Shown here: positions 7,807-64,000 of the stretch, piece by piece
Layout: every line of letters begins with the position of its first letter
Numbering within the stretch: position 1 is the stretch's first letter
Origin: an uncultured Erythrobacter sp.
GTDB lineage: Bacteria > Pseudomonadota > Alphaproteobacteria > Sphingomonadales > Sphingomonadaceae
NCBI GenBank assembly: GCA_947503275.1
Contig: CANNCZ010000001.1
Coordinates: forward strand, 1,426,001 to 1,490,000
Reading direction: 5' to 3'
DNA length: 64,000 bases
Program-made: the position numbers and the translations under genes
The notes under the pieces: model-generated
The model's database searches: none
Told to the model about the DNA's origin: nothing
Seen by the model: the letters and a program-made list of their open reading frames with translations, nothing else

Positions 7807-7875
7807 TTCGTCGGCACCGTACTATCTGAAATCCTTGGTCAAATGCACCTTCTCCTGCAGCAGTAGGGGAAGAAC

Positions 7876-9189: not shown

Positions 9190-9223
9190 GCTGCGCGGAA
9201 TGGGAATCAGGAGTAAGTCGACC

Positions 9224-9526: not shown

Positions 9527-9548
9527 ACCAGACGAAGGGGGGACAGAT

Positions 9549-9851
9549 ATGATCGTAGTCACCGGCACATTCCGCGTGCCACCCAGCATGATGTCGGTTG
9601 TTATCCCGGCGATGGAGCAGATGATCGCCGCCAGCCGCGCCGAGGAAGGCTGCATCGAATACGCCTATGGCTTTGATGTGCTGGACACGGGGCTGGTCCG
9701 GGTCAGCGAAACATGGCGCGATCGCGAGGCGCTGGAATCGCATTTCCGCACCGCACATATCGCCGAATGGCGCGCGCAGTTTTCAGCTTTGGCTATCTCA
9801 GAACGTGATCTGTTTGCTTATGAAACGGCCGACGAGGGCTTCCACATCTGA
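9549..9851 (+). CDS. Antibiotic biosynthesis monooxygenase (ABM) family protein, copy 2
   Basis: 100 residues, the same length and fold as the preceding gene: MIVVTGTFRVPPSMM, AEEGCIEYAYGFDVLDTG, VSETWRDREALESHFRTAHI. The two copies share the EEGC core and the E-W-D/R-E-AL--HF-T-H helix, but differ widely elsewhere, so the duplication is old. Ribosome site GGGGGGA lies upstream of the ATG. The substrate is not known; the tandem arrangement is the main clue. Confidence 0.85.
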   Translation: MIVVTGTFRVPPSMMSVVIPAMEQMIAASRAEEGCIEYAYGFDVLDTGLVRVSETWRDREALESHFRTAHIAEWRAQFSALAISERDLFAYETADEGFHI

Positions 9852-49090: not shown

Positions 49091-50071
49091 TTAGACCGCG
49101 CTCTCTGGCAGGTCTTCGTCAAACACGCGCTGGTAATATTCGCTCACCAATGTCCGCTCTGCCTCATCGCATTTGTTGAGGAAGGAAAGACGGAAAGCAA
49201 AGCCGACCGAATTGAAGATTGCGGTATTCTGCGCCCAAGTGATGACCGTACGCGGGCTCATCACGGTTGAAATGTCGCCGTTCATAAAGCCCTGACGGGT
49301 GAGCTCGGCCACCTTCACCATGTCCGCGATCATCGCATCGTTGGTGTCCGGTGTCTTGGATTTGACGATGGCTTGTTCGGTTTCCGCAGGCAGGTAATTC
49401 AACGCGCACACTATGTTCCAACGATCCATCTGCGCTTGGTTGATCGCCTGCGTGCCGTGATACAGCCCGCTCGTATCGCCCAGTCCGACCGTGTTGGTGG
49501 TCGCGAACAGACGGAAATGCGGGTTGGGTGTGATCACGCGGTTCTGATCGAGCAGCGTCAGGCGGCCATCGAATTCCAGAATTCGCTGAATCACAAACAT
49601 GACATCGGGGCGGCCCGCGTCATATTCATCAAAGGTCAGCGCAACCGGGTGTTGCAGCGCCCAAGGTAAGATGCCCTCTTTGAATTCAGTGACTTGTAGG
49701 CCGTCCTTCAGGACGATCGCATCACGCCCGATCAAATCGATCCGGCTGATATGCGCATCAAGGTTCACCCGGATGCTGGGCCAATTCAGCCGCGCGGCGA
49801 CCTGTTCGATGTGAGTTGATTTGCCCGTGCCGTGATAACCCTGAATCATCACTCGGCGATTATGCGCAAAACCGGCAAGAATCGCGAGCGTCGTGTCGTG
49901 ATCAAACACATAGCTTTCATCAAGCTCCGGCACGTGCTCATCGTTCGAGGCAAAGGCTGGGACTTGCCAATCGATATCAATGCCAAATGTGTCACGCACA
50001 TCGACTATCGCGTCGGGCTTGGACGGAATGGCGCTGGCGCCGGCGAATTCTTCAGAGGAGTGTGAGTTCAT
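49091..50071 (-). CDS. cobS: Cobaltochelatase subunit CobS-like AAA ATPase
   Basis: 326 residues. Walker A in [16 protein letters not shown], Walker B in [11 protein letters not shown], then [20 protein letters not shown] and sensor arginines in SPRTVITWA. These match CobS, the MoxR-type ATPase of aerobic cobalamin synthesis, which drives cobalt insertion with CobN and CobT. Neither cobT nor cobN is next to it here, so it might be an orphan MoxR-type ATPase. Confidence 0.85.
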
Positions 50072-50144
50072 TACGATTGCGGCGTTAATGGCCTATCGCG
50101 ACGTGGGCAAGAGGTCCATCGCGCATCGCCCCTGACATTTTTGC

Positions 50145-50819
50145 CTAGCCCTGGGGTGGAACCCGGATTTCACTGAGATGGCCGCGCTTGATCCAGACCC
50201 GCGCGGCCGCGTTACCGATTGTAAATTGCACACATGTTTGCGCCGGTATGCGCAGCCAGTCATGCGTCTGATAGGTTGCGCCAGCGTAAGCCACTTCACC
50301 GGACAGAATAAGCACCTCTGCCCCGCCATCATCAACAATCTCGATTGCCGCGCCCGGCTCCCATTCCTCCAACGCAACTTGCTCATAGATCCGGTCGGCC
50401 AAAATGGCGCGGCGCACACCGTCTCCTGCATCGGTCAATTCAAGCGCATTCAAATCAACCGCAATCTGCTCCTGATCATCGGGATCAAACTGCCACAATT
50501 TGACGAAGATTGTGCAGCCCGGATCAGAACGCGGCACATGGTGCGTGCCCACCGGATTGCGGACATAGGTGCCCGCAGGATAATCGCCGTGCTCATCTTG
50601 GAAGACACCCTCGAGAACAATAAATTCTTCACCGCCCGAATGCGTGTGTTCTGGGAAAGCGCTTCCTTTGGCATATCGAACGATGGAGGTCGCGCGGGCT
50701 ACCTCATCACCGATCCGGTCGAGCATCCGCCGGTCAACGCCTGCCATCGGGGACGGTATCCATTCCAATGCGCTGGTTTTAACTTGAGCAGGCTCAGCAA
50801 AGTTCGCGTTGATCTCCAT
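50145..50819 (-). CDS. Double cupin protein (ChrR-like cupin)
   Basis: 224 residues from MEINANFAEPA; the open frame reads on upstream to 51419 inside the divergent gene and is not a real extension. The first cupin has FPEHTHSGGEEFIVLEGVF, a proper HxH-x4-E metal site, and GTHHVPRSDPGCTIFVKL; the second (AEVLILSGEVAYAGATYQTHDWLRIP) is weaker. This resembles the ChrR cupin domain that releases an ECF sigma factor, but without the zinc-binding N-terminal part. Divergent from the MpaB-like gene. Confidence 0.78.
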   Translation of the reverse strand: MEINANFAEPAQVKTSALEWIPSPMAGVDRRMLDRIGDEVARATSIVRYAKGSAFPEHTHSGGEEFIVLEGVFQDEHGDYPAGTYVRNPVGTHHVPRSDPGCTIFVKLWQFDPDDQEQIAVDLNALELTDAGDGVRRAILADRIYEQVALEEWEPGAAIEIVDDGGAEVLILSGEVAYAGATYQTHDWLRIPAQTCVQFTIGNAAARVWIKRGHLSEIRVPPQG

Positions 50820-50900
50820 GACGAAAGAAATGGGGAGGTTTGAGTCAAAGTTAAAGCAAACCCGCTCGAAAAATGCGATCGGGATCACTACGTTGCCCTT

Positions 50901-51740
50901 ATGGCTGATCCGATCGAATCCTTGCGTCTGCGCCTTGTCGATCAGGTGCGCGGCGTTTTTAACGACACCTCCAACGGGCAAAAGCCGACCCCGCCATCGG
51001 ATGATGCGCTGTTCGCCAAGGACACACCGATCCGCATGGTGCACGCCGATCTGGTGGGCATGATGACCGGAGGTATCCGCAGCCTGCTGCTGCAAATGCT
51101 CCATCCAGAGGCGCTGCAAGGGGTGCTCGACCATTCCAATTTTCGCGAAGACATGCATGGCCGCCTGCGCCGGACTGCTCAATTTATCGCTGTCACAACT
51201 TTTGGGCACGAAACCCGCGCGAATGCCGCGATTGCGAGGGTTAATGCGATCCATGCAAAGGTCACAGGCACTCTGCCCGATGGCACGCCCTATCGCGCCA
51301 ATAACCCCCGCACCCTTGCATGGGTCCACGTGGTGGAGGCGCAAAGCTTTCTTGCGGGATATCTGCGTCATGTTCGCCCCAATATGCCGGGTGCACAGCA
51401 GGACGAATACTACCGGCAATTCGCTGTCATAGCGCGCGCATTGGGTGCCGATCCGGTGCCGGAGACGCGCAATGAGGCGGAGGGGATTTTCCGCGAGCTT
51501 CGCACAGACCTGCGCCCGTCACCAGAGGCGCGCGAGATTGCGCAACTGGTCCTGACCCAAAAGCCCGAAGGCACGCCGCCCGGAGTGCAAGCCATTCTGG
51601 GTGCAGAGGCGGTGGCCATGGTGCCCGACTGGGCCCGCTCAATGCTAAAATTGCAGCGCCCAGTGCTCACCGCATTGCCCGCCCGCGCGGCGACTTGGGG
51701 CGTGGGTCGCACGCTGCGTTGGGCTTTCAAACAGAATTGA
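50901..51740 (+). CDS. MpaB/DUF2236-family oxygenase
   Basis: 279 residues. LVGMMTGGIRSLLLQMLHPEALQGVLDHSNF, TTFGHETRANAAIARVNAIHAKVTG and LAWVHVVEAQSFLAGYL are the heme-binding family motifs shared with rubber oxygenase (Lcp) and fungal MpaB; the histidine in VNAIHAK is probably the heme ligand. It would cleave or oxidise a lipid-like substrate. It starts 81 bases from the divergent cupin gene. Confidence 0.83.
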   Translation: MADPIESLRLRLVDQVRGVFNDTSNGQKPTPPSDDALFAKDTPIRMVHADLVGMMTGGIRSLLLQMLHPEALQGVLDHSNFREDMHGRLRRTAQFIAVTTFGHETRANAAIARVNAIHAKVTGTLPDGTPYRANNPRTLAWVHVVEAQSFLAGYLRHVRPNMPGAQQDEYYRQFAVIARALGADPVPETRNEAEGIFRELRTDLRPSPEAREIAQLVLTQKPEGTPPGVQAILGAEAVAMVPDWARSMLKLQRPVLTALPARAATWGVGRTLRWAFKQN

Positions 51741-51794
51741 CCGAAAGCCGGCGTATTCTGCTATTCTCCCCTATCGAAGCTTGGGAGAATGGAG

Positions 51795-52172
51795 ATGTAC
51801 GTAGCCATCGCAGCACTATCGGTGCCGGAGAAAAACCGCGAAGCTTACATTGAGGCCGCCGAATTCATGGCCAATTGGTCGATGGACCACGGCGCGATTG
51901 AGGTGATGGAAGCGTGGGAAGCCCACGTTCCCGAAGGCAAAGTTACCGATATGCGCAAGGCTGTCGCTGCCCCGGACGGCGAAAAGATGGTCACGGGCTG
52001 GGTGATTTGGCCTGACAAAGAAACCTTAGACAAAGCCAAAGAAGCCATGGGCAAAGGCGAAGGTTTTGAAAACTACCCGGAAGGTGACCCACCCTTTGAC
52101 GGCTCACGGCTAATATTTGGCGAGTTTGAGCCTCTGTTGACGCGCGGGCGAAAGGGGACCGGAAATGGCTGA
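51795..52172 (+). CDS. DUF1428 family protein
   Basis: 125 residues from MYVAIAALSVPEKN, preferred over the ATG at 51789 because GGGAG at 51783-51787 then has proper spacing. EAYIEAAEFMANWSMDHGAIEVMEAWEAHVPEGKVTDM and GWVIWPDKETLDKAKEAM are typical of DUF1428, a ferredoxin-like dimeric fold of unknown role. It overlaps the start of the truncated GST gene by eight bases. Confidence 0.85.
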   Translation: MYVAIAALSVPEKNREAYIEAAEFMANWSMDHGAIEVMEAWEAHVPEGKVTDMRKAVAAPDGEKMVTGWVIWPDKETLDKAKEAMGKGEGFENYPEGDPPFDGSRLIFGEFEPLLTRGRKGTGNG

Positions 52173-52782
52173 ATTTACGTTTTTCACCAATCCACAAAGC
52201 CGCGCATGGATCGTTTGGTGGGCCCTGAATGAGGTAAGCGCGGACTATAAGCCAGAGCTGGTTGAATGGTCCAACAAGCCGCGTGCGCTGCTCGACGCCA
52301 ACCCTTTGGGAAAAGTGCCCACCATTGTCCATCACTGCGCAGGTAGCGATCACGTCGTGACTGAGGCTGCGGCGATCTGCCACTATCTCGCCGAAACCCA
52401 TCCCGATGCAGGCTTGCTGCCCCTTGCCAAAGAGCGCGCCGACTATTTTCGCTTGATGTTTTACGTTGCAGGACCGGTTGAACAGGCGTTGATCGCCGAT
52501 GCGATGGGTTGGAAAAGCGAAGACCCTTCGCGTCATGCGATGCTTGGCTTTGGCAACTACACGCTAGCGATGGACACGCTTGAAACACTGCTTGCGCGGT
52601 TTGATTATGTGTGCTGTCAAGTTCCAAAGTGCGGTCATGGTTCCAGTCACTTGGAGGTATCGTTCAATGCATTGAATTTGTTGCTCTACTTATGGAGCGA
52701 GAGCAGTTGGGATTTGCCGGGGCAAATTGGGATTCTCGGCAAGATCGGCTCTGGGCTACTAACTGGCCTTGGTTTTGCGTGA
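52165..52782 (+). pseudogene. Glutathione S-transferase, C-terminal half replaced
   Basis: The first 150 residues are a GST: FTFFTNPQSRAWIVWWAL, NPLGKVPTIV and VTEAAAICHYLAETHPD form the thioredoxin-like domain, followed by the first helices of the C-terminal domain up to LETLLARFDYVC (about base 52617). In homologues that point continues with a GDKFTAAD-type stretch. Here it is replaced by CQVPKCGHGSSHLEVSFNAL and unrelated sequence up to a stop at 52782. This looks like a gene cut by insertion or recombination at the left edge of a foreign segment. The missing end is not found elsewhere in the window. It may still make a protein. Confidence 0.7.
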
Positions 52783-53246
52783 GAAGAGGATGAAAATCGG
52801 GGTATTGGAGCACTCAAATACCGCAAAAAAGCTAACAGAATTGCTGCCCTTGCCCAGCTACGAAAACCGCCCTTGCCGACCCCAGTTGCTTCGCCTCGGG
52901 TGATTTCTCAATGAAGCTAGTAAGCAGCTTTTTTGGGGCCGAATAGACAGCGACAAGAAGCTTCCTAATGTCCATTTCGGGTGGATAACTGTTAGTCAAA
53001 AGGCACCTACCCTCACGTCTGTTTTAGCTTTGCTACGTTGCCTGATGGCTCAGTTGATAGGTCAGGTGCAGGGGGCAGCCTTGTACCTATATTAGGTCTG
53101 CTATGCGCCCCAATTTCGGACATTCACTCTCTAAGGGCCATATGCCGATAACGGACCAATTTATGCCCTCTAGACCTTTGCTGCTGGGTGTGGTCCGCAA
53201 ACATTCAAATGAAACCGTAGCGAACGGGATTACACTGCTCGACAAA
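52783..53246. other. Non-coding or decayed stretch at the left edge of the island
   Basis: 464 bases with no convincing gene. Short frames exist on both strands (minus 52832-52975, plus 53103-53300, and minus 53087-53305 over the same bases), but none has a ribosome site or a recognisable family. Base composition is less GC-rich than the flanks. It probably represents the junction and decayed ends of a past insertion. Confidence 0.5.
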
Positions 53247-54191
53247 CTAGGAGATCGAGGCCGAGGAATAAACTTTGGTGGGTTCCGGCTGCAGATATGA
53301 GCCAAGTGTTAGAGCGTCATACCGGTTGAAGAACGTTTCAAAGAAAAAACGGTGTTGAGCGCCATTGTCATCAGTCAGAATCAACTCACTCTCACCGAGC
53401 GGGCCGCCTCCTTGAGAGCCACAATAGCTGGCTATGGTTTGAAACACTTCAACTTCCGATTGGCGGCTGAAACGTTCAGCAAATGCAGGCGACTGAATGA
53501 AATGCCGGCATGGCTTTGCTGGATCAAAGTTCGCTGGTCGCCTTGATCGATGTGGGTGGGCGCTTATCATCCCCACCATCGGTACTTCCCGACCACGAAG
53601 CTCGACAAAGCGGTAAAGCGTAGTCGAGAACGTATTGCCAAACGCGCCCTTCAGTTCTTTCAGATTGTCGAGCGTTGGTGCGAGATCCAAGGCCTCGTCG
53701 CCGAAGCGACCTTGGAGGAACAGTAGCTGGCCGGCCGCATAGTTGGCTTCAGTTTCGATCTGATCGTGGCAATCATGAGATAAGGTAAAGCCATCGTCGC
53801 CAAGCATGACGTCGTGGTGCCACGGGAGCAAACTATGGCCAATTTCGTGACCCTCGTTCCATCGGTGCTTCAACTTCGGCTCGTTCCCATCGAGCAGGAT
53901 CCGGCGCTGGTCTGGGAGGTAGAGCGCCTTCAGCGACATTTTCCGAATAGCTTCGAGGAGGAGCTTAGGTCGCTCGTAGATTTGAACCGTCGCGACCTTT
54001 ATTCGGCTAACAGTTTCTCGAACAGCACCTGCGTCGGCAGCTGTGTAGAATTGTCTATCTAGCCGCAGAAGCTGGCGAACGTCGGACAACTCCAAAGGGG
54101 GCTCCGGGTTGCCAAGGCCATCCAACACCTTCGCAACTCGGCGGTCGATATCTGCCGCAGTTTTTTCCGAAAGAATTCGGTTCTTTGCCAA
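53247..54191 (-). CDS. ImmA/IrrE-family metallopeptidase
   Basis: 314 residues. The zinc site RWNEGHEIGHSLLPWH (HEIGH) with a downstream Glu in ETEANYAAGQLLF is typical of the ImmA/IrrE family, and the C-terminal 100 residues are an added domain (RFFFETFFNRYDALTLGSYL). These peptidases cleave helix-turn-helix repressors. The XRE protein upstream, 25 bases away, is the obvious partner and target. It is the last gene of a four-gene minus-strand unit. Confidence 0.88.
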   Translation of the reverse strand: MAKNRILSEKTAADIDRRVAKVLDGLGNPEPPLELSDVRQLLRLDRQFYTAADAGAVRETVSRIKVATVQIYERPKLLLEAIRKMSLKALYLPDQRRILLDGNEPKLKHRWNEGHEIGHSLLPWHHDVMLGDDGFTLSHDCHDQIETEANYAAGQLLFLQGRFGDEALDLAPTLDNLKELKGAFGNTFSTTLYRFVELRGREVPMVGMISAHPHRSRRPANFDPAKPCRHFIQSPAFAERFSRQSEVEVFQTIASYCGSQGGGPLGESELILTDDNGAQHRFFFETFFNRYDALTLGSYLQPEPTKVYSSASIS

Positions 54192-54216
54192 TCGTGCCCC
54201 CTTTGGCGCGTATCTA

Positions 54217-54693
54217 TCAATTGTCCGAGCTTAGCCGCGCAACGAAATCCTCTAATGCAGCACGCTCCTCGTCCGTGAGGTCTGCCATGGGGTCCGAGCG
54301 CGCGGCAAATCGCTCCATATGCCGTTCGATATTGTCGTTGCGGGCCTTGGCGAGGCCAGCAACCTGCATGAGCTTCGCGCTAGGGAGCTTGAAGACGCCG
54401 GAGATCTGATAGACCGAGCGAACATCCGGTTTATGCCGAACATCGTCCTCAATCTCGATAAGCTCTTTGATGTCGATATCTGCATCCTCGGCGAGCTTTT
54501 CACGTGACATCTTTTGCGAACGACGCATGAGTCGCACAAAGCGGCCGAATGCAACATTGGCCTCATCTGTATCGGTCACATCTGGTGCTTCTTCAAAAAC
54601 CGGGTCAAGCGCTAGCGCGCCAGCAGCGATCGAAGCGTCGCCTTCGAGCTCTGCCATTCTAAGACACCACTCTTTGGTCATATGAGTGCTCAT
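54217..54693 (-). CDS. XRE-family helix-turn-helix regulator
   Basis: 158 residues. The middle has FVRLMRRSQKMSREKLAEDADIDIKELIEIED, a Cro/CI-type helix-turn-helix, followed by a C-terminal helix-rich part that may bind the peptidase. It overlaps the GNAT gene by four bases. Together with the ImmA/IrrE-type gene it forms a known repressor/protease pair of mobile elements and toxin-antitoxin-like systems. Confidence 0.85.
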   Translation of the reverse strand: MSTHMTKEWCLRMAELEGDASIAAGALALDPVFEEAPDVTDTDEANVAFGRFVRLMRRSQKMSREKLAEDADIDIKELIEIEDDVRHKPDVRSVYQISGVFKLPSAKLMQVAGLAKARNDNIERHMERFAARSDPMADLTDEERAALEDFVARLSSDN

Positions 54694-55331
54694 CGATTCT
54701 TTCCTTTCGCGATGAACGCTTCTGCTTGCGCAGCCGTCATCTCATAATATCGTAATCCCTGTTTTGCTGTGTCGGGTCCGAGGTCGGTCATGCCACAGGT
54801 CGCGCTATAAAAAGCCTCGGCTTGCGGAAGGGCGTGCAGCCCGATGCGACCCTTGAATTCCTCGGCGATGCTGCGTTCAATTGCGGCTCCCACCAAGATA
54901 CTACCGATACCACGGTAGCGGGGCGCCTGTTTGAGTTCGGGTCTGTTCCAAGGCGCGTTCTCGACATAGTCGATATATACCAAGTTTCGCTTTTCGTTTT
55001 CCGGCAAACGACATCGATAGCTGCTCGTGTCGATCAGCATTAGGCCCTCGGTCATGCCTTGGCAGGTCAAGCAATAGCCGTCATGCGAGAGCAGACCTTG
55101 CAGCATCTCGACCTTCTGGCGCCAATCCCAATGCCTGTTCTCGGCGCCGGGCCATGCAGCCGGCGGTTTCCCCGCGCGTTTGAATTCACGGAAGCGGTCG
55201 TATAGGGCGGGCTTCCATTCACCTTCAACGTCGGTGAGTTGCGTTTCGGTGATAGACGAAAGCAACTCGGCCTCGCGCGGTTCTCCTGTTGCGGTATCCA
55301 GCAGTGTGACCTTCAAAGCGTTCGTGGTCAT
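54690..55331 (-). CDS. GNAT-like acetyltransferase of the island
   Basis: 213 residues. The C-terminal half carries the acetyl-CoA motif RYRGIGSILVGAAIERSI and GRIGLHALPQAEAFYSATCGMTDLG, a GNAT fold; the N-terminal 90 residues are unusual, with HWDWRQKVEMLQGLLSHDGYCLTCQG. It is coupled by four-base overlaps to an upstream ribbon-helix-helix gene and a downstream XRE gene. GNAT enzymes paired with ribbon-helix-helix antitoxins (TacT/AtaT type) acetylate aminoacyl-tRNA; whether this one does is untested. Confidence 0.72.
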   Translation of the reverse strand: MTTNALKVTLLDTATGEPREAELLSSITETQLTDVEGEWKPALYDRFREFKRAGKPPAAWPGAENRHWDWRQKVEMLQGLLSHDGYCLTCQGMTEGLMLIDTSSYRCRLPENEKRNLVYIDYVENAPWNRPELKQAPRYRGIGSILVGAAIERSIAEEFKGRIGLHALPQAEAFYSATCGMTDLGPDTAKQGLRYYEMTAAQAEAFIAKGKNR

Positions 55332-55540
55332 ACCATCATGATCTCGGCTTTATCCTTAGTCACTTCGTTCTCGACATAAAGCTTGTCGCCTTTCTCAACA
55401 CGAGCCTCGAGCAGCTGGTATAGGCGAAGGGCCTGCCGCATGACGGCCGTCTTGCTCATGTCTTTTCGCGCACTGAAGTCCTCAACTACCGACATTTCCG
55501 CGTCGGTGAGGTTGAGTGTCATTGTTCGTTTGGTTGCCAT
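55328..55540 (-). CDS. Ribbon-helix-helix protein, possible antitoxin
   Basis: 70 residues: MATKRTMTLNLTDAEMSVVEDF forms the beta strand and first helix, and SKTAVMRQALRLYQLLEARV the second, as in MetJ/Arc-type DNA-binding proteins. It is the first gene of the minus-strand unit and overlaps the GNAT gene by four bases. The promoter region in front holds nested inverted repeats that suit autoregulation. Start ATG 55540 is preferred over the longer frame. Confidence 0.78.
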   Translation of the reverse strand: MATKRTMTLNLTDAEMSVVEDFSARKDMSKTAVMRQALRLYQLLEARVEKGDKLYVENEVTKDKAEIMMV

Positions 55541-55598
55541 GTCCTGTCTCCATCGGGGTGCGTCTACATACACTTTAAAGCCAAATTGTCAATGCACG

Positions 55599-55639
55599 AT
55601 AGCCATTTACTAGCTGTCAATTAGCTAATATCTGGCTAT
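55599..55639. promoter_or_regulatory. Nested inverted repeats in the divergent promoter of the island
   Basis: Outer arms ATAGCCA (55599-55605) and TGGCTAT (55633-55639); inner arms TAGCT (55611-55615) and AGCTA (55623-55627). The octamer-like TGTCAAT occurs twice as a direct repeat (55587-55593 and 55616-55622). The region is AT-rich between the ribbon-helix-helix gene and the Ubl gene, so it probably controls both. Confidence 0.6.
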
Positions 55640-55695
55640 TCAGTGATGAAGCGGCGCTGAACATGGTGGCGTGTCACAACTTGAAAGGCAGCCAC

Positions 55696-55950
55696 ATGGC
55701 CAAGGACAAAAAGAAGGAAGTAACAATCTTCGTGGAGGGGACCCCGCATCAGTGGCCCAAGGGCGAGATTAGCTACGAGGAGGTCGTGGCGCTCGAAGAA
55801 CCCTGCTTCGCGAGCAACCCCAACATCACCTACTCGGTGACCTACAAGCGAGGCATGGGCAACAAGCCGGAAGGCACGCTCGTTGCCGGCGCTTCGGTGA
55901 AAATCAAAGATGGGATGCGGTTCAGTGTTTCAGAAACTGGTCAGTCGTAA
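55696..55950 (+). CDS. Multiubiquitin-type ubiquitin-like protein (single domain)
   Basis: 84 residues from ATG 55696 with GAAAGG upstream. KEVTIFVEGTPHQWPKGEISYEEVVALEE, then ITYSVTYKRGMGNKPEGTLVAG and SVKIKDGMRFSVSETGQS match the bacterial multiubiquitin domain, a beta-grasp fold. Family members usually carry two or more copies; this has one. The end is TGQS and not Gly-Gly, so a different C-terminal chemistry or prior processing would be needed for conjugation. It overlaps the E1-like gene by 41 bases. Confidence 0.85.
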   Translation: MAKDKKKEVTIFVEGTPHQWPKGEISYEEVVALEEPCFASNPNITYSVTYKRGMGNKPEGTLVAGASVKIKDGMRFSVSETGQS

Positions 55951-57118
55951 TCCAGACCTCGCTCGACTTGTCGAGCGAGGTTACGCCGTCGCTTTCGACC
56001 AGGGCCACCTGATCGTGAGGGACATTCCCTATCTGGACTCGGCAGGAAATTTACAGTCGGGCGCAATTGTTTCCAAGCTTGTGGCGGTAGATGGCGAGGT
56101 GATGAAACAGCAGGACCACCAGATCTACTTTGCGGGGTCGCATCCGCATAACCTCAAAGGGCAGCCAATATCGAACCTAGGTGGTGGTCTGACCTCCATC
56201 ACGTTGTCCGCTGAGCACTCGGACGTCGTCGTGCAACGCTCGTTCTCGAATAAGCCAAAGAACACCGGAAAATTCACCGACCATTTCGCTAAAATCGAGA
56301 GCTACGTTGCCATTATTTCCGGTCCGGCGATCGAGACGCGTGGGGTCACGCCCTACACATACAGAGCGGACAAAACCGAAGTGGCGGATCCGATATTCAA
56401 ACTCCAAGACACCTTGACTAGTAGAGCGGGCATCGCGGAACTTAATGCGGGGCTTGCTAACGAGAAAATCGCGATCATCGGACTTGGTGGTACGGGTGCA
56501 TTCCTCCTCGATTATGCTGTGAAGGCCCGAATACCGGAGATCGTCGGATTCGATGGCGACGACTTTCACGTCCATAACGCCTACCGATCGCCGGGAAAGC
56601 TCGACGAAGAAGAGCTCGGGCGAAAGAAGGCGGATGTCTATCAGGCGCGATACGAACCTTTCCGGCATGGCCTCACGCTAAAAGCCACCTACATCACAAA
56701 CGATTCAGCTGATGAGTTTAAGGGGGTTACGTTTGCTTTCGTTTGTGTCGACAAAGGCTCAGCGCGAAACGAAATCTTCGACCTACTGATCGGACTCGGC
56801 ATCCCGTTCATTGACGTCGGTATGGGCTTAAAGCGCAAGGATGGGCCCATTAGCGGAATGATGCGCACGACATATTTCCAGCCTGGCACCGCAAGTGACC
56901 TTAAAGCCAAAGGATTGGCCGAAACAGCAGATGGCGCGGACAATCTCTATCGCGACAACATCCAGATCGGTGAGCTCAATGCACTGAACGCATGTATTGC
57001 CATGATCCGCTATAAACAGCTTCGCGAATTCTACCGAAGCGATGAGGAAAGCCTCAATAGTCTCTTTGAAGTAGCGGACCTGAGCGTCATCAACGTGAGA
57101 TCGATCGATGACCTTTGA
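55910..57118 (+). CDS. E1-like ThiF-family adenylyltransferase with N-terminal domain
   Basis: 402 residues. Residues 1-165 form a separate domain (SRNPDLARLVERGYAVAFDQ, DHQIYFAGSHPHNLKGQPIS) of the kind annotated DUF6791. The rest is a ThiF/E1 fold: KIAIIGLGGTGAFLLDYAV, FDGDDFHVHNAYRSPG (ATP and Arg site), LGRKKADVYQ and VDKGSARNEI. It would activate the Ubl by adenylation. No clear E1 catalytic cysteine follows the adenylation core; the candidates are in FVCVDKGSAR and NACIAMIRY. ATG 55910 or GTG 55925 could be the start. Confidence 0.83.
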   Translation: MGCGSVFQKLVSRNPDLARLVERGYAVAFDQGHLIVRDIPYLDSAGNLQSGAIVSKLVAVDGEVMKQQDHQIYFAGSHPHNLKGQPISNLGGGLTSITLSAEHSDVVVQRSFSNKPKNTGKFTDHFAKIESYVAIISGPAIETRGVTPYTYRADKTEVADPIFKLQDTLTSRAGIAELNAGLANEKIAIIGLGGTGAFLLDYAVKARIPEIVGFDGDDFHVHNAYRSPGKLDEEELGRKKADVYQARYEPFRHGLTLKATYITNDSADEFKGVTFAFVCVDKGSARNEIFDLLIGLGIPFIDVGMGLKRKDGPISGMMRTTYFQPGTASDLKAKGLAETADGADNLYRDNIQIGELNALNACIAMIRYKQLREFYRSDEESLNSLFEVADLSVINVRSIDDL

Positions 57119-57503
57119 AGTTGAGCGCGTCCATTTCATGCCGAAGCAGCTTGAGTCGGGAGTATTATATGTGTCCGACGAATTCGAGACCGCAGCGCAT
57201 TTGTGCGCCTGTGGTTGTGGTTCGAAGATACGCACGCCTATCCTTCCGACCGAATGGCACTTGTCCGGCCCGGACTCTAGACCCACGCTCCGCCCTTCCA
57301 TCGGCAATTGGCAGAGGCCATGCCGCTCGCACTATTTCATCATGAATGGTAAAGTTGAATGGTGTGCGCAATGGACAGAAGAAGAAATCCTAGCAGGTCG
57401 ACGAGCCGAGCAGGTTCGCCGCGAACGCTACTACGATGATCTCTACGCTCCTTGGTGGAAGCGCCTTTGGAAATGGGTCACACGCAAGATTGGACGAATG
57501 TAG
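57108..57503 (+). CDS. DUF6527 family zinc protein
   Basis: 131 residues. HLCACGCGSKI with a later cysteine in NWQRPCRSHYFIMNGKVEWC gives a treble-clef-like zinc site; RPTLRPSIGNWQRPCRSHYFI is the strong family stretch. DUF6527 genes often accompany ubiquitin-like E1 or E2 genes. The protein ends in a Trp- and Arg-rich segment (WWKRLWKWVTRKIGRM) that may touch a membrane. It overlaps the E1-like gene by 11 bases; the third and last gene of the unit. Confidence 0.82.
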   Translation: MTFEVERVHFMPKQLESGVLYVSDEFETAAHLCACGCGSKIRTPILPTEWHLSGPDSRPTLRPSIGNWQRPCRSHYFIMNGKVEWCAQWTEEEILAGRRAEQVRRERYYDDLYAPWWKRLWKWVTRKIGRM

Positions 57504-57808
57504 TGGCTGTTGTGTTTCTTCGCATAACACTGACGCAGGACCCTAGCCGTTACGAAGCAAAAATTGATGAAACCATGCCTCAGGTTGGAGACTGAGACAT
57601 CACGCCGTTCCACCTAAGCTATGAGCCCACTCAACGTCTGCTTTCCAATCCTGCACAACGAGATCCGGACAGTCAGGAAACGGCCCATCTCCTGTCCCTG
57701 ACTAATGACCGAGACTGGGGGTGGAAGCGGACTAACCGCTCCTAATCAGATCATTCAAATAAGCACGTTTAAGACTCAGGCTAGCGGTTTCGATGCTTCC
57801 CTTTTGGG
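57504..57808. other. Non-coding stretch at the right edge of the island
   Basis: 305 bases with no convincing gene. It holds a 16-base GGGGGTGGAAGCGGAC motif at 57717-57732 that recurs at 60147-60162, and a tRNA-like run on the minus strand at 57562-57628 that lacks a matching acceptor arm. The island probably ends here. Confidence 0.45.
57717..57732 (+). repeat. Short repeat, copy 1 (second copy at 60147-60162)
   Basis: GGGGGTGGAAGCGGAC at 57717-57732 and GGGGGTGAAAGCGGAC at 60147-60162 differ at one of 16 bases. Both lie in intergenic DNA flanking the segment with the GNAT, hydrolase and ASCH genes, in the same orientation. They may be remnants of a dispersed element. Confidence 0.5.
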
Positions 57809-58336
57809 TCACATTACCGATTTGCGATACACCTCAACCAAACGATTGCACGTCGGATCATGAGTTTGTCGATCAAGTTGCATTCCGAGCTTTCTTATGA
57901 CGTTTCGCGATGCTTCATTCTCTGTCTGAACAATGCTGACGATTGCCTGTAATCCCAGATCGTTAAGGCCAAATTTGAGCGCAGCATATGCTGCTTCGGT
58001 AGCGTAGCCTTGTCCCCAGTGTTCGCGTGAAAGCCTCCAGCCAATCTCAATAGCCGGCATGATTTCAGGCAAAAAAGTTGGCTCGGATAGGCCCGAAAAT
58101 CCGATGAACGAGTTGGTCTCCAAAAGCTCCACAGCGAACAGTCCAAAACCCTTTTCATCCCATTCGTGCTCAAAAGCCTCTATTGAAGCCTCTGTCTGCT
58201 CGCGAGTTCGCGTATCTCCCGATCCGATAAATCGCATCACTTCCGGATCACGGCATATGGCCACGAAAGCATCGATGTCCTGAGGGAGCCACCGTCGTAG
58301 CAAGAGGCGATCGGTTTTGAGTGCTTGTTTGGTCAT
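57809..58336 (-). CDS. GNAT acetyltransferase
   Basis: 175 residues. DRLLLRRWLPQDIDAFVAICRDPEVMRFI, then EIGWRLSREHWGQGYATEAAYAALKFG and NEASRNVIRKLGM are the RimJ/RimL-type pattern. Most likely acts on an amine or protein N-terminus. It is separate from the island GNAT and closer to the one at 24.2 kb. A 64-base gap separates it from the hydrolase upstream. Confidence 0.9.
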   Translation of the reverse strand: MTKQALKTDRLLLRRWLPQDIDAFVAICRDPEVMRFIGSGDTRTREQTEASIEAFEHEWDEKGFGLFAVELLETNSFIGFSGLSEPTFLPEIMPAIEIGWRLSREHWGQGYATEAAYAALKFGLNDLGLQAIVSIVQTENEASRNVIRKLGMQLDRQTHDPTCNRLVEVYRKSVM

Positions 58337-58400
58337 TTATTGAGATTGTAGCGCTACCAACACCCATATCAGCCCAGTTAAAGTCGATTAGTGATGCCAT

Positions 58401-59432
58401 TCATTCTTCGACCGTGGCAAGGCCGCTGTTCGCACTCCCAATCGTGTCCTCCAAAAAACTGAGAATGCGCGGCCATTGATCCAAGCGGGCTGCCACGTCT
58501 CCATCGACAGTCCCGCCCATGCGCCCGAGAGTCTGAGAGTCGTTTTCGTGAATGTCGCTGGCTGGGCCAAATGCCCAATGGCCAGCATTGTCATAGGCCA
58601 GCACTTCGACTGCAGAGTCTGATCCCGTCGTCGCTCTTTCTTCGATTGCTTCTGCCATGCGGCAACCGGGCCAGAGCGTGTCGTCTCTCCCGCAAATCAA
58701 CAGAAGTGCTGTATTCGTGAGCTCAACAGGGATGAAAGCGTCCGGATGATCGGAAACCATATCTCTGCTGCGATTGAACATTTCAAACCTTGGAGCATCG
58801 ACACTGAAGTACTCATGCCAAGCTAGCGACTGATAGGGCAGATATGCGACCGGCTCACCGTCCTCGCTCCATGAAGAAGCGAACTGCGACATATCGATGC
58901 TGTCAAAGTCGAACCCTTGCCAAACAACATCACTGGGCATGGCCGCAACCACGGCCCCGACACGGGCGTCCCGCGTAGCAAGCAACAACGCGCCTTCTGC
59001 CCCCTTGGAATGGCCTATTACCGCAATCGGGCCAGGGCGTATGTCGGGATTGGACGATAGCCAATCGAGCGATGCATCCAAGGTCTCAAGAGGCACCATA
59101 TTGAATGACCGATTGCTTTCAGATGTTGCGTAATAGCTTTGGTAGAGCACCGCATAGCCCTCATCCGATAGCTGCCTTGCAAAGACATTTCGGTATTCGC
59201 GCAGGCCGCCCTCTGATCCACCTAGAAGCAGAATTGCAGGGCGTGGGCCGCCATCCTCACCCCGGTAAAAATTGGCGGGCAGGCCGTTGATGTTGACCCG
59301 CTCCCCTCCAATGCCAGCCTCTGCGATGACGAGCGGGCGTGGTTCGCGTGTAAACCAAAAATAGGCGTTCACTCCAATGAACACCAAGACAACAGCCAGC
59401 AGACCAAGCCCAATTTTGTATCGACGCTTCAT
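58401..59432 (-). CDS. Alpha/beta hydrolase, acyl-CoA thioesterase (BAAT)-like
   Basis: 343 residues. One N-terminal membrane anchor (LGLLAVVLVFIGVNAYFWF), then LLLGGSEGGLREYRNVFARQL, the nucleophile elbow AVIGHSKGAEGALLLA, LLICGRDDTLWPGC and a late histidine in YDNAGHWAFGP. The GHSKGAE elbow and GGSEGG are typical of the BAAT/acyl-CoA thioester hydrolase group. Probably periplasmic or membrane bound. The protein ends with an extra helix. Confidence 0.88.
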   Translation of the reverse strand: MKRRYKIGLGLLAVVLVFIGVNAYFWFTREPRPLVIAEAGIGGERVNINGLPANFYRGEDGGPRPAILLLGGSEGGLREYRNVFARQLSDEGYAVLYQSYYATSESNRSFNMVPLETLDASLDWLSSNPDIRPGPIAVIGHSKGAEGALLLATRDARVGAVVAAMPSDVVWQGFDFDSIDMSQFASSWSEDGEPVAYLPYQSLAWHEYFSVDAPRFEMFNRSRDMVSDHPDAFIPVELTNTALLLICGRDDTLWPGCRMAEAIEERATTGSDSAVEVLAYDNAGHWAFGPASDIHENDSQTLGRMGGTVDGDVAARLDQWPRILSFLEDTIGSANSGLATVEE

Positions 59433-59559
59433 GGCATATGTCTCTTCATCTGATTGCTCTTGCTGCCCATTAGGAGATCACTACGCGGCGATGAAGTGCT
59501 TGGACAAGCCGAAATACTAGGCCACTTGTGTATTCGAGATGGTTCAGTTCTGACTTGCA

Positions 59560-59967
59560 TCAATCTTGACCGGGTACTGGCAAAATCTCGATCAATTCAA
59601 ACCATTCGCACCACAAGAGCATCTCTGGATCAAAGCCGCCATTCCGGGTGAAGTAGGTTTGATGAGCCTGGCGCCAAGAGGCCAAAGTCCGATCTCCCTC
59701 TCCTTCGGCATAGGCAAACTCCTCATCAACTCGGTCGAATCGCTCGGTTCGCAAGTCAGTCGTCTCGAGGATGGCGCGCGGGTGTCCGCTACCATCTTCA
59801 ACGACCCAACGTCCGCCAATTTCTGTGTCTTTATCGCCCTCAGCCGCACTCCAACACGTCGCGCGTTTTCGACCAGTCAGAATCAACGCCAACAACTCGT
59901 CAGCCAACTCCGGCCCATCCCCAAACGGAAAGCTTGGGAGAGTTTTTAAGTCATAATCTTTGCTCAT
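59560..59967 (-). CDS. ASCH domain protein
   Basis: 135 residues from MSKDYDLKTL. ILTGRKRATCW, RWVVEDGSGHPRAILETTDLRTERFDRVDEEFAYAEGEGDRTLASWRQAH, and a final FEL are the ASCH (PUA-related) fold. Some ASCH proteins cleave RNA or hydrolyse N4-acetylcytidine; here the family is clear but not the substrate. The frame upstream of 59967 is open without better start. Confidence 0.88.
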   Translation of the reverse strand: MSKDYDLKTLPSFPFGDGPELADELLALILTGRKRATCWSAAEGDKDTEIGGRWVVEDGSGHPRAILETTDLRTERFDRVDEEFAYAEGEGDRTLASWRQAHQTYFTRNGGFDPEMLLWCEWFELIEILPVPGQD

Positions 59968-60146
59968 TACCGAGACCCAAGCAATTACTTGCCACATTCA
60001 GAATTGAATGCTTTTGAAGGAGAATGTGAACTAAATCTATGACTGAAAATGGGTCGTGATCAGACCAGCCGCTTTTTGTGTTTAGCCTGAAAAAGCCGAC
60101 AGACTGCAACAAGTCCGGCCTCTATGTGCCAGTTATGTCAGCTCAT

Positions 60147-60162
60147 GGGGGTGAAAGCGGAC
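60147..60162 (+). repeat. Short repeat, copy 2 (first copy at 57717-57732)
   Basis: GGGGGTGAAAGCGGAC, one mismatch to the first copy, located in the 259-base gap between the ASCH gene and the Arg-rich secreted protein gene. Otherwise the gap has no gene I can support. Confidence 0.5.
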
Positions 60163-60226
60163 ATAGGCGCGCCTCGCTATGACAACGGTCGGCGGAGTTT
60201 TCTGGTCAAGTCTTTTTCAAGGTCTC

Positions 60227-60907
60227 CTAGCGTCTAAAAAGCGGCTTGAACGGCTTTCCCAAGAAACTGATCACGCGCCTGACTAGGCTCGGTCGCTCTT
60301 GTTGTTGGCCGTTTCGCTGAGCGGTCTGGGCGGCGAGCGTGCTCCATTGGCGGCTTGGATCTTGCACTTGTCCGCTACCAATGGGCGCTGCCCCCGCCCG
60401 CGTGGCGCCGCGCGATGCGGCCGTTTGGGGAAACCCGTTTGCCGCGGCACGGCGCAGTTCTGCGGTCGAGGATGGATTGATGCGAGGGGCCCCGCGCTCC
60501 GCCTGCTTGTCCGCCAGCGCGCGGCTTCTTGCAGCAGAACGATTATCACGCGTAGCACTGCCGATCCGTGTGATCTGATTGCCTCTGCCATCGCGGCGCA
60601 GAGCACTGGCCGCGGTGCGTTCCTGAGCGGTGGGCGTCCTGAACGTTACTTGACGTGAGTTCAAAATGTAACCGGCACGGTTGCGGTACTGGTTGGGCCG
60701 CGTTCGATCCGCCGTCGCGCTGCCGCGGGTCGAGCGGTCGCGTGATCTTTGCACTCTTTGACCGTTCGCTGCCGTGGCTGAGCTGCTCGCAACCGCCGAC
60801 AAGCTCCCGTTCTCTGCCGCAGCCTTTGTGGTTGTCATTGCAAGGCTGCCGCCGGATGCGAGGAACACAGCGGCAATCATGCCTCGTTCAAATATTGATT
60901 TCATCAT
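60227..60907 (-). CDS. Secreted Arg-rich protein of unknown function
   Basis: 226 residues from ATG 60907 with AAAGGA nine bases upstream. A signal peptide (MMKSIFERGMIAAVFLASGG) is followed by a low-complexity, very basic region rich in Arg, Ala, Ser, Gln and Thr (VQRSRDRSTRGSATADRTR), ending with RRVISFLGKPFKPLFRR. No fold is predicted from the sequence. It lies 22 bases after the LamG-like gene on the same strand and may be part of the MACPF unit. Confidence 0.65.
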   Translation of the reverse strand: MMKSIFERGMIAAVFLASGGSLAMTTTKAAAENGSLSAVASSSATAANGQRVQRSRDRSTRGSATADRTRPNQYRNRAGYILNSRQVTFRTPTAQERTAASALRRDGRGNQITRIGSATRDNRSAARSRALADKQAERGAPRINPSSTAELRRAAANGFPQTAASRGATRAGAAPIGSGQVQDPSRQWSTLAAQTAQRNGQQQERPSLVRRVISFLGKPFKPLFRR

Positions 60908-60929
60908 ATCATTATCCTTTTTCAATTGC

Positions 60930-61592
60930 TTAAGGCGTAGTGTCTGCCAACAGGAAGTCCTCGCTGGCAAAGGCGCTGTGGCCGATTAAAAAGCGTAGGT
61001 CTGGATGTTCTGCTTGTTCTTCATCAAGCAGGTCACGCATCGCGTAATTGAGCACGTTGTCCTGAGACAGTGGCACGCCCCACAGTCGGATCGCCGCAAC
61101 CGCGCCCAAGAACGGATCATTGTTCCCATCAGCAGACCCAATGAACAAGCCATCCGCCGGAAGCGATTTGATGGTCATTTCGAGCACGGCGACCAGTGTG
61201 TTGTCGACCATCACTTCCATGCGATCGCCATAATCGATGATGGCGACAAAGTGCATCTTGCCGTCGGTAAAGTCGAACGGGGCGACCATAAAGGTGTCGC
61301 CCGACATGATCCCAATGCCATTCCGGTCACGCAGCAGCGCGACTAGATAGCTTGCGCCTTCTGGGCCGGCATAGGATAGAACCACTGGATCGAAGCTCGG
61401 AGCGGTTTCCCAATCGGGCTGGACCCAGAATTCAATCGTCGCGCCTCCTGATAAGTCGAGGCTTTCATCGGCAGGGAATCCAAGTGTGGTTGCCCCATCA
61501 AACTCCATCACGTCTGGCGTGTACTGGGCGCTAAGAGGCGATGCGATTAAAGCGATCCATACAAGGACAACAGAGTGTATTAGAAGTTTCAT
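60930..61592 (-). CDS. Secreted LamG/concanavalin-like protein, MACPF partner
   Basis: 220 residues. Signal peptide (LLIHSVVLVWIALIASPLSA, cut before QYTPD), then a single LamG-type beta-sandwich: VMEFDGATTLGFPADESLDLSGGATIEFWVQPDW, DFTDGKMHFVAIIDYGDRMEVMVDN and FLGAVAAIRLWGVPLSQDNV. Such domains bind sugars or proteins. The gene starts inside the end of the MACPF gene (four bases), so the two are translationally coupled and probably act together. Confidence 0.85.
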   Translation of the reverse strand: MKLLIHSVVLVWIALIASPLSAQYTPDVMEFDGATTLGFPADESLDLSGGATIEFWVQPDWETAPSFDPVVLSYAGPEGASYLVALLRDRNGIGIMSGDTFMVAPFDFTDGKMHFVAIIDYGDRMEVMVDNTLVAVLEMTIKSLPADGLFIGSADGNNDPFLGAVAAIRLWGVPLSQDNVLNYAMRDLLDEEQAEHPDLRFLIGHSAFASEDFLLADTTP

Positions 61593-63685
61593 GGTCCAAC
61601 TCCGTAGAGGAAATCGAGATAGCCGTTGTCGAACGCAGCCAGATCAATCGCGGTCGTGCCCAGCACCTGCGATGGATTGCCAGAGGCTTGGAAACCAAGC
61701 CGCAGCCTGGCAGTCGACGGGATAGTTGCGCAGCTCTGCCGTTTGTTCGAGCCGTAGGTTGTAAGGGTGCCCACGCCACTCACGGAAACAGTCATGTGGC
61801 GGGATCCCTCGATGCGGCTTTTCAGGCAAACCCGCACAAAGCCGGGCCTGAACGTGTCGCGTCCGTAGGCAACGCGAACATTTTCCCGCACACCGCGATA
61901 GGTGACGACCGGGATATTGGTGACCAGCCCCGGCGGGGCGCGCTCCGGAATGACAGACCCGAACCCATCTCGAATTGCAGCCTCTTCCAGGCGCTGTTCG
62001 ATGAGAGCCTCTAGACGCGGACGGACCTCGTTCCAGATTTCAGGCTCGTTTGGAAAATACAGGGGATTCAGCAGGTCGGAGATCGGGCGCAGATCAGCGA
62101 GGATCGGCACTGGAGTTCCGGTCGAAAAGCCGTTTTGATCAAAGCTGCCGGTGCCACCGACTGCATCGAATCCAGACTCGGAGCTCTCGGCCAGCTCGGA
62201 AGAATTGCGGGACTCTTCGATAAAACGCGATCCGCTTGCACCGACCTGGAAGCCGCCAATTGCAAGGCCGGCTTGAGCATTAATGTTTTTGCTCTGGCTC
62301 TGCCATTCCTGCATCGTCTGTTGGTCAAAGCTTGCCCACATACGCGCCTGTGAGCCGTAAGTGACCGCATAGGGATAGTGCGTGCCAAATTTGTCGATCA
62401 AGTCGTCGTAGCGGCCCATACGATAGGCGAAATCGACCGCATCAATGAAGTCATCGCTTAGCTTTGCAAAGGGTCGGTCGAGCACAAGCGTGTAGAGCTT
62501 GTGGCGCGCAAAGCCCATCGACACGGCGCGCTGCATGCCAAACTGGCGACCCAGCGTGCTGGACTTCGCGAAATCAGCGCCCGCCCCAAGTGAGCCTTTG
62601 GCCTCGCCAGTCTGTCTGTCCTTTCTGGTAAAGCCGATATTGAACCCGAACGAACTGGCAGCCGTGCGCTGAAAATCAAATTGCCGGGAGATCATTTCCC
62701 TAGATGTAACGCTGCCCTGCGCACCATCAGGAATGTATTTGAGGCCCAGTGGCACTGTACGCTTCTCGATAATCGCGAAATCGCGCGGAGCAGCCGTTGC
62801 GAAGATGTCCGCTTTTGAGTTGCGATTTAGTTCGAACGGATCCTGTCGGATCACGTCATAACCGCGTAGCGACGCGCGGTAATTGTCGAGATTGTTGCCG
62901 ATCAAGAAAACATCCGTGACATCAATGTCCTGCGCGCGAGAAACGGTCGGTTCGGGCCTGTTGTAGCTGTATCCGTTCCAGCGCAGCTCGGGCTTGCCGG
63001 TGCGTGAGACAGAGACGGTCAGCGTTGCATTTTGCCAGCGGCCCGTCCCCTCGCGATAGACATAGCGTTTGCTCGCGCCCGATGGCTTCATCACGTGACG
63101 CATTGGAGTGTTGTCGGCGGCAATCAGGACAATCGGTTCACGGCCCTGTGTGGCTGGTCGGATCGTGATGCGGCTGCCGTCATTCTCCATGCTGACATAC
63201 ATCAAGTCGGGTGTTGTAAAATTGGAGTGGGTCAGACGGTCGTTGAGTTGCTGACCGCCTAGCCCGGCAAACAATTCCATCGGCGCTTTACTGGGATCAA
63301 GGGCGAGTTCCGTGTCCTGCACCCAGATGCCATCCAGCCTGTAACGACAGTCTTCAGCCAAGTCGGCATCACTAGCCGGGCCTTCGGGCAAAACGAAAGA
63401 GGCAAAGACACGGGCAGCGGTTGGGTCTTGCGTCGTTGCATTGCGCGATTGCACGCGTTCAACGCTGCTGGGGTTATTGACTGGCAACCGCTCGGGCGCT
63501 CTGCACCCTTTGAATGCTTCGATCGGACGCCCTGTTCGGGCTGCAGATCCTTGAAACAGCTGATCGGGAGAGAGCTGGGGCATCGACCCGGGCACATTCT
63601 GCTGGGCAATGGCAGATGGCGCGATTGGCGCAACACACATTGTGGTGATCAGTAATCCGCCAAGAATCTTGCGTCGTCCGTTCAT
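61589..63685 (-). CDS. Secreted MACPF/perforin-family protein
   Basis: 698 residues. Signal peptide (GGLLITTMCVAPIAPSAIA, cut near residue 27). The centre contains YDDLIDKFGTHYPYAVTYGSQARM at residues 426-449: the first twelve fit the MACPF signature Y-x6-[FY]-G-T-H-[FY]. After it come glycine-rich amphipathic stretches (AGLAIGGFQVGASGSRF) that could be membrane hairpins. The N-terminal 250 residues and the C-terminal beta domain (about 590-698) have no family I recognise. MACPF proteins form ring pores or act as adhesion proteins. They are rare in alphaproteobacteria. A histidine kinase gene precedes it by 96 bases. Confidence 0.85.
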   Translation of the reverse strand: MNGRRKILGGLLITTMCVAPIAPSAIAQQNVPGSMPQLSPDQLFQGSAARTGRPIEAFKGCRAPERLPVNNPSSVERVQSRNATTQDPTAARVFASFVLPEGPASDADLAEDCRYRLDGIWVQDTELALDPSKAPMELFAGLGGQQLNDRLTHSNFTTPDLMYVSMENDGSRITIRPATQGREPIVLIAADNTPMRHVMKPSGASKRYVYREGTGRWQNATLTVSVSRTGKPELRWNGYSYNRPEPTVSRAQDIDVTDVFLIGNNLDNYRASLRGYDVIRQDPFELNRNSKADIFATAAPRDFAIIEKRTVPLGLKYIPDGAQGSVTSREMISRQFDFQRTAASSFGFNIGFTRKDRQTGEAKGSLGAGADFAKSSTLGRQFGMQRAVSMGFARHKLYTLVLDRPFAKLSDDFIDAVDFAYRMGRYDDLIDKFGTHYPYAVTYGSQARMWASFDQQTMQEWQSQSKNINAQAGLAIGGFQVGASGSRFIEESRNSSELAESSESGFDAVGGTGSFDQNGFSTGTPVPILADLRPISDLLNPLYFPNEPEIWNEVRPRLEALIEQRLEEAAIRDGFGSVIPERAPPGLVTNIPVVTYRGVRENVRVAYGRDTFRPGFVRVCLKSRIEGSRHMTVSVSGVGTLTTYGSNKRQSCATIPSTARLRLGFQASGNPSQVLGTTAIDLAAFDNGYLDFLYGVGP

Positions 63686-63757
63686 TCCCTGCCTCCTCCT
63701 CGACCTTCTGGCCTGATTGGCTGAGGCAAGAATGACAGTTCGGGAGTGGCGCGATAG

Positions 63758-63772
63758 TGGGGATTGTCCCCA
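63758..63772. promoter_or_regulatory. Palindrome between histidine kinase and MACPF genes
   Basis: TGGGGA (63758-63763) and TCCCCA (63767-63772) around three bases, in the 96-base gap before the MACPF gene. Either an operator or a short hairpin; no T run follows on the minus strand. Confidence 0.45.
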
Positions 63773-63781
63773 TTTCGCAGG

Positions 63782-64000
63782 CTATTTGCTGTCAGGGATA
63801 TGAATGGAGACCCTGCATCCCTGGCCGGAGGCGGACTCGATGTCGAAGTGAAAGCTTGATTTGGCACAGATGTCTTGCACAATCGCAAGGCCGAGCCCTT
63901 CGCCGTGAGAATGGCTGCCTTTGCCGCCGCGCTGCATGGCGCGTTGCAGCTCTGCCGTGCTCATGCCGGGGCCATTATCGCGTATCTCAATCTGCGTGCC
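63782..64000 (-). CDS. Sensor histidine kinase, C-terminal fragment
   Basis: Only the last 72 residues are in the window; the gene enters from the right. It holds the G1 box (IEIRDNGPGMS), the G2 box (GEGLGLAIVQDICA) and the final strand SGQGCRVSIHIPD of a HATPase_c domain. Sensor and phosphoacceptor domains are outside. It is on the same strand as the MACPF gene. Confidence 0.9.
   Translation of the reverse strand, partial: GTQIEIRDNGPGMSTAELQRAMQRGGKGSHSHGEGLGLAIVQDICAKSSFHFDIESASGQGCRVSIHIPDSK

Follow-up and report, generated by a model that had tools for sequence, protein, structure and literature searches.

The window, meaning the whole 64,000-nucleotide stretch of uncultured Erythrobacter sp. 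DNA analysed here, carries a compact cassette of three overlapping plus-strand genes (55696-57503). They encode a one-domain ubiquitin-like protein (Ubl), an E1-like ThiF enzyme with an N-terminal DUF6791 domain, and a DUF6527 protein:

55696-55950, plus strand: Ubl, Multi_ubiq, 84 residues (Pfam PF14452, E 5.8e-15)
55925-57118, plus strand: E1-like enzyme, DUF6791 plus ThiF, 397 residues from GTG 55925 (Pfam; BubCD is its best PDB match)
57108-57503, plus strand: DUF6527 protein, 131 residues (Pfam PF20137, E 1.9e-24)

An original prediction, made from the letters and a list of open reading frames (ORFs), had proposed three overlapping genes, the third encoding DUF6527, and the ORF list and Pfam matches bear this out. 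It placed the start of the finding at 55541; the Ubl gene actually starts at ATG 55696, with a further in-frame ATG upstream at 55663. The E1 start is best placed at GTG 55925 (the ORF opens at ATG 55910), because homologues begin at the equivalent point, and the DUF6527 gene overlaps the E1 gene by 11 bases. The nearest studied relative of this cassette is the Bub pathway, known from Citrobacter BubA, BubB and BubCD (PDB 9ea4, 9ea5, 9ea8, 9eae, 9eav).

The Ubl, the E1-like enzyme and the DUF6527 protein

The Ubl is a single beta-grasp (Multi_ubiq) domain with the C-terminus SVSETGQS, so that the one domain, the TGQS end and the lack of Gly-Gly were correctly called. The terminal serine proves to be a family trait, present in 32 of 34 Ubls from the loci collected for comparison (window included), with alanine in the other two (L018 and L037); 29 of the 34 tails fit T-x-[Q/K/R]-S. 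Close homologues in the protein database behave likewise: 118 of 120 have a T/S-G/S-x-S ending, in a sample dominated by close relatives because 113 of the tails are TGQS. A serine-tailed long-form Ubl is already in the PDB: the long-form Ubl family profile matches entry 9cd2, the ZDHYS365 multi-ubiquitin domain protein, at E 4.8e-52 over positions 9-215 of 215, through the terminal serine of its T-D-K-S tail. Compared as a protein alone, 9cd2 is a multi-domain long form, whereas the window Ubl has one domain. With three other solved Ubls, one of which is called Ubl-BilA, the match is confined to the initial part of the profile (positions 8-155, E 2e-27 to 1e-24).

The extra N-terminal domain noticed on the E1-like enzyme is DUF6791 (about residues 10-163; PF20590, E 9.3e-41), and the ThiF adenylation domain follows from about residue 170 (PF00899, E 2.1e-9); the protein also matches NCBIfam PRK06153.1-2 at 562.9 bits. 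Pfam finds DUF6791 in all 31 scanned members of the family, at the N-terminus, where the Bub enzyme has its JAMM domain. By family profile, Foldseek and VIA-align, the best PDB match of the enzyme is Citrobacter BubCD. The E1 core aligns with BubC at an hhalign probability of 99.4, and its family-profile E-value is 1.1e-10 for BubC versus 1.6e-4 for MccB. Moreover, the invariant Tyr342 aligns with a tyrosine conserved in 10 of 10 Bub E1s, presumably the position that is mutated in PDB 9eav.

Conservation within the enzyme centers on residues other than cysteine. His65, Ser108 and Tyr127 of DUF6791, together with Tyr342, are present in every row of two alignments (31/31 and 60/60, with 4 rows shared), and Lys110 in 31/31 and 59/60. 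Among 57 family members, Cys274 is present in 47 and Cys357 in 29, while position 75, a histidine in the window protein, is His in 28, Cys in 23 and Tyr in 6; no cysteine is invariant, in keeping with the claim that the E1 has no obvious catalytic one. Within DUF6791, residues 1-150 of the window protein hold no cysteine, and the 57 rows hold no invariant one that could be catalytic. The AlphaFold model is confident (mean predicted local distance difference test score, pLDDT, 89.8), and its order of elements in DUF6791 resembles the E2 order given in PMC1779556, a resemblance of order and not a fold comparison.

DUF6527 is present in both operon types, DUF6791 and Bub. Across 26 proteins of the window type and nine of the Bub type, C33, G36, C37, P63, S64, C72 and H75 are constant; C35 is found in 26/26 and 7/9, respectively, and H31 in 26/26 versus 0/9. 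A metal site is predicted from these sequences among H31, C33, C35, C37, C72 and H75, with the spacing C33-x3-C37-x34-C72-x2-H75. The model is confident (pLDDT 92.8), and a structure search with it found no PDB fold match. DUF6527 is likely a small metal-site protein that would act as a target-binding or deconjugating partner. Of 10 Bub operons fetched, eight carry an annotated DUF6527 gene, L063 and L064 among them having been located by way of DUF6527 itself; in L080 the sequence reveals it, and in L079 it was not seen.

The claim that neither an E2 nor a deubiquitinase is encoded agrees with Pfam scans of nine neighboring proteins, which contained no such family, and with a profile search of the whole genome, run without a positive control, which found no BubB-type E2.

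Distribution of the trio and its regulatory neighborhood

The distribution of DUF6791 is patchy. It matches in 8 of 198 relatives, 7 of 385 genomes of the class and 8 of 398 of the phylum, the window's own genome being included in each count. E1 relatives as such abound, 7281 of the 8000 candidate proteins scored reaching E <= 0.001, and DUF6791 is present in each of 120 E1 relatives among the matches listed. The E1 occurs in 114 of 72,556 plasmid records and on four IMG/VR contigs, and in none of 50,697 phage records.

Where DUF6791 occurs, the trio is widely kept together. By profiles built partly from the counted loci, the Ubl adjoins DUF6791 in 42 of 43 loci and DUF6527 does so in 41 (window included), the Ubl gene lying upstream and the DUF6527 gene downstream. 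In the loci with a missing partner, the contig starts at the E1 (L056), only 85 bases of contig are left (L015), or the E1 frame is interrupted and a DUF6527-like ORF lies downstream (L004). Five of the 43 loci (L059, L060, L062, L065 and L066) were found through DUF6527, and excluding them gives 37/38 and 36/38; ten plasmid loci (L045-L054) were chosen from a match list showing gene names. The least biased subset consists of the 19 genome loci (L014-L020 and L033-L044) that were retrieved with DUF6791 as the only query; all 19 have the Ubl and 18 have DUF6527, L015 being the exception. The co-occurrence on which the original prediction staked itself is thus borne out.

Several loci hold further genes. 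A large UvrD-type helicase gene lies directly upstream of the Ubl, on the same strand, in 7 of 37 loci, all with long Ubls (L014, L015, L033, L039, L040, L048, which supplied the helicase query, and L050). In the Rhizobium beringeri plasmid locus L054, multi-ubiquitin genes occur in two sets (1-1620 and 7286-9634) separated by about 5.7 kb: one is of the DUF6791 type, and in the other a separate JAB gene (annotated Mov34/MPN, below the Pfam cut-off) lies next to the second multi-ubiquitin gene, at a distance of 6.4 kb from the trio's Ubl. On the viral contig L057, a second, lone Ubl-like ORF ending in NNA (6525-6749, minus strand) lies opposite the trio.

Divergent from the window's trio are four minus-strand genes that overlap or nearly do so, and that form a module with it:

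55328-55573, minus strand: ribbon-helix-helix (RHH)-like repressor candidate, first gene of the divergent operon (weak Pfam match to RHH_9, E 0.058, below the cut-off)
54690-55331, minus strand: GNAT acetyltransferase-like protein, 213 residues (Pfam Acetyltransf_10, E 3e-5)
54217-54693, minus strand: helix-turn-helix (HTH) regulator, 158 residues (Pfam HTH_19, E 8.2e-11)
53247-54191, minus strand: M78 (ImmA/IrrE-like) peptidase, CapP-like, 314 residues (Pfam Peptidase_M78, E 6.9e-5; PADLOC capP, E 3.2e-11)
53096-57490, unstranded: module of trio and divergent operon, seven genes, 4.4 kb (blastn block common to L002 and L019)

The HTH gene adjoins the CapP-like M78 gene (53247-54693), the GNAT protein has relatives in L002, L016 and L019, and the RHH-GNAT pair resembles an acetyltransferase toxin-antitoxin pair. 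In blastn comparisons, 53096-57490 matches L002, from Sphingomicrobium, at 84.7%, and 53104-57484 matches L019, from the window's genus, at 83.1%. Beyond this block, window positions 50001-60000 share one 95-base stretch, with L002 only. The trio and its divergent regulators therefore recur jointly. All four regulators also have relatives beside the trio in L016, and L059 has a matching stretch. Of 37 loci, 15 have M78 genes near the trio and 4 have WYL genes no more than 4.2 kb away, some of these loci having themselves supplied queries.

The RHH-GNAT-HTH-M78 operon accompanies not only the DUF6791 type (window 53247-55573, L002, L016, L019 and L059) but also a JAMM-type Bub operon. In the latter, L083, the same order is given by annotation at 413-2702; Pfam matches its RHH and HTH genes, and the GNAT and M78 genes fall below the cut-off. 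The RHH gene's counterpart there is annotated as CopG-family and matches RHH_1.

The original prediction is thus right in part: the cassette is minimal, its Ubl does not end in Gly-Gly, a separate E2 is missing and a regulatory operon lies alongside; its spread, moreover, is patchy. The prediction also placed a truncated gene next door. A glutathione S-transferase gene (52165-52785) is indeed truncated, keeping about the first 150 of some 208 residues, and its resemblance to 11 relatives breaks off at 52614 (in one at 52620), but this is about 0.5 kb outside the module. Only weak matches to the remainder (E 0.046 or worse) were found in 51001-64000.

From its context, an immunity role of the cassette is plausible. 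According to PMC13373217, 219 of 544 Bub operons adjoin CapW or CapH plus CapP, which are DNA-damage regulators, and protection against phage by Bub operons is described as not shown so far. Work on Synechocystis includes the observation that DUF955-type toxin-antitoxin genes adjoin 70% of multiubiquitin genes (PMC4963859).

Relation to known Ubl systems

Like the cassette, Bub operons combine a Multi_ubiq Ubl (PF14452 in L063), an E1 core with the same conserved tyrosine and an adjoining DUF6527, and in L083 the four-gene regulatory operon. However, the Bub operons fetched encode a Ubl, a Prok-E2_E E2, a JAMM-E1 enzyme and usually DUF6527, whereas the window's trio lacks the E2 and JAMM and has DUF6791 instead. 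The Ubl tails differ as well: Bub Ubls end in glycine, with TEG in 3/3 that have a separate E2 and a G-[E/D] junction in six E2 fusions, unlike the serine of the window Ubl. These fusions (L064:2405-3523, L079:3246-3998, L081:3301-4005, L082:2898-3986, L083:2856-3998 and L084:2895-3956) have a similar junction, in which E or D comes after NNG, TDG or REG, and it is probably here that the JAMM domain cuts the fused Ubl-E2, freeing the glycine tail. No cysteine is invariant among nine BubB sequences.

Other bacterial Ubl transfer systems are more distant. In Cap2 of the cyclic-oligonucleotide-based antiphage signaling system (CBASS), an E2 is fused ahead of the E1, and the catalytic residues are cysteines. 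The Bil system, with an E1 bearing a Cys domain, an E2 and a JAB protein, is also described as using catalytic cysteine (review). In contrast to both, the window E1 has no invariant cysteine, and PADLOC E1-E2 models match it weakly (best E 3.2e-4).

The three-gene form had been thought still undefined, but this variant already appears in Iyer, Burroughs and Aravind 2006 (PMC1779556), and 9cd2 is a serine-tailed long Ubl. As outlined there, operon class 6e shares with the window a Ubl of one to three repeats, an E1-like enzyme, a metal-site partner and a sporadic spread, and in one sub-form an uncharacterized N-terminal domain takes the place of JAB on the E1. The metal motif of class 6e, C-x3-C-x35-38-H-x2-C, is near in spacing to the window's C-x3-C-x34-C-x2-H and has C and H swapped. 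Because the family was outlined in 2006, the cassette is not a new kind; section 14 of that paper does so without the serine-tail rule, the Tyr, Ser and His residues of the E1 or the module boundaries.

Proposed mechanism and its alternatives

The cassette likely tags proteins by tyrosine and serine instead of cysteine chemistry. Tentatively, and at somewhat below an even chance, we read it as a compact relative of the Bub pathway in which the fused enzyme would adenylate the carboxylate of the Ubl's terminal serine, Tyr342 would accept the Ubl as an oxyester, and Ser108 of DUF6791 would then probably pass it to the target. Ser108 would serve as an acyl carrier assisted by His65 or Lys110, with DUF6791 in the E2's place. 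DUF6791 is proposed as the E2 equivalent because BubB and BubD profiles match nothing in the fetched stretches of the 43 DUF6791 loci; both match in L063 and L064, which are themselves members of these profiles. With a Ubl whose tail is already exposed when made, the JAMM domain could be dispensed with, and the divergent HTH/M78 pair may induce the system on DNA damage. The fuller claim is that of a complete transfer chain without catalytic cysteine in two polypeptides, a serine-tailed Ubl and an E1/E2-like fusion in which the Ubl moves from Tyr342 to Ser108, DUF6791 being a serine-type E2 that has diverged beyond the reach of sequence profiles; this seems to us rather unlikely.

Several observations weigh against the Bub-like reading. 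Profile-profile comparison of DUF6791 with nine, and later 13, BubB sequences gave no signal (probability <=0.4%), the scores of 13.7-14.3 being no better than the 11.1-14.4 reached by unrelated control pairs, and Pfam, with E allowed up to 1, assigned no E2 family to any of the 31 members. Against the window's Ubl family profile, the final Ubl domain of Citrobacter BubA reaches only E 1.1. In addition, an abstract by Ye et al. 2026 reportedly describes Ser-His dyad serine proteases in Bub operons, and His65 and Ser108 could be such a dyad. In its discussion of the sub-form, the 2006 study suggests that the domain might replace the JAB peptidase, not the E2 (PMC1779556).

Such a role defines an alternative that is quite possible, if doubtful: DUF6791 would be a deconjugating serine hydrolase (Ser108/His65) in JAMM's place, and either the E1 would transfer the Ubl directly or DUF6527 would be the transfer partner. 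DUF6791 does occupy JAMM's position in BubCD, with both residues invariant, and the reported Ser-His proteases count toward the same view. Comparison of the DUF6791 and JAMM profiles gave no signal. The hydrolase would leave the pathway without any E2-type domain, the exposed Ubl tail makes a maturation cut seem unneeded, and the element order in the AlphaFold model, though not a fold comparison, is closer to E2. The analogous function that Iyer et al. suggested is the literature's point in its favor (PMC1779556).

Conjugation to proteins might also be absent altogether, an improbable alternative in which the E1 nucleotidylates the Ubl C-terminus, as MccB would, and so yields a modified small protein, or the Ubl is a non-covalent, assembling sensor. 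MccB is among the E1 relatives by profile and structure, as is PaaA, the Ubl ends in serine without Gly-Gly, and oligomerization of bacterial Ubls has reportedly been studied by Gong et al. 2025. Nevertheless, BubC is a closer relative of the E1 core than MccB is, and Bub operons that encode an E2 also have DUF6527 and, in L083, the regulators. A sulfur-carrier system in the style of ThiS/MoaD would suit the ThiF fold and the resemblance of the E1 to ThiF and MoeB, but the missing Gly-Gly tail, the lack of an invariant E1 cysteine, the lack of a rhodanese among the nine scanned neighboring proteins and the spread on plasmids make it very improbable.

Ubiquitin-like conjugation is normally defined by glycine tails and cysteine thioesters. 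What makes the cassette a distinct, testable variant is its serine tail, the link of Tyr342 to Bub, the absence of both E2 and JAMM, and the seven-gene module. A serine-tailed family in which invariant Tyr, Ser and His stand in for cysteines would put to the test which elements of this chemistry are indispensable, and the Tyr342-BubC link, together with so few invariant residues, reduces the question of the non-JAB domain's role to a few point mutants.
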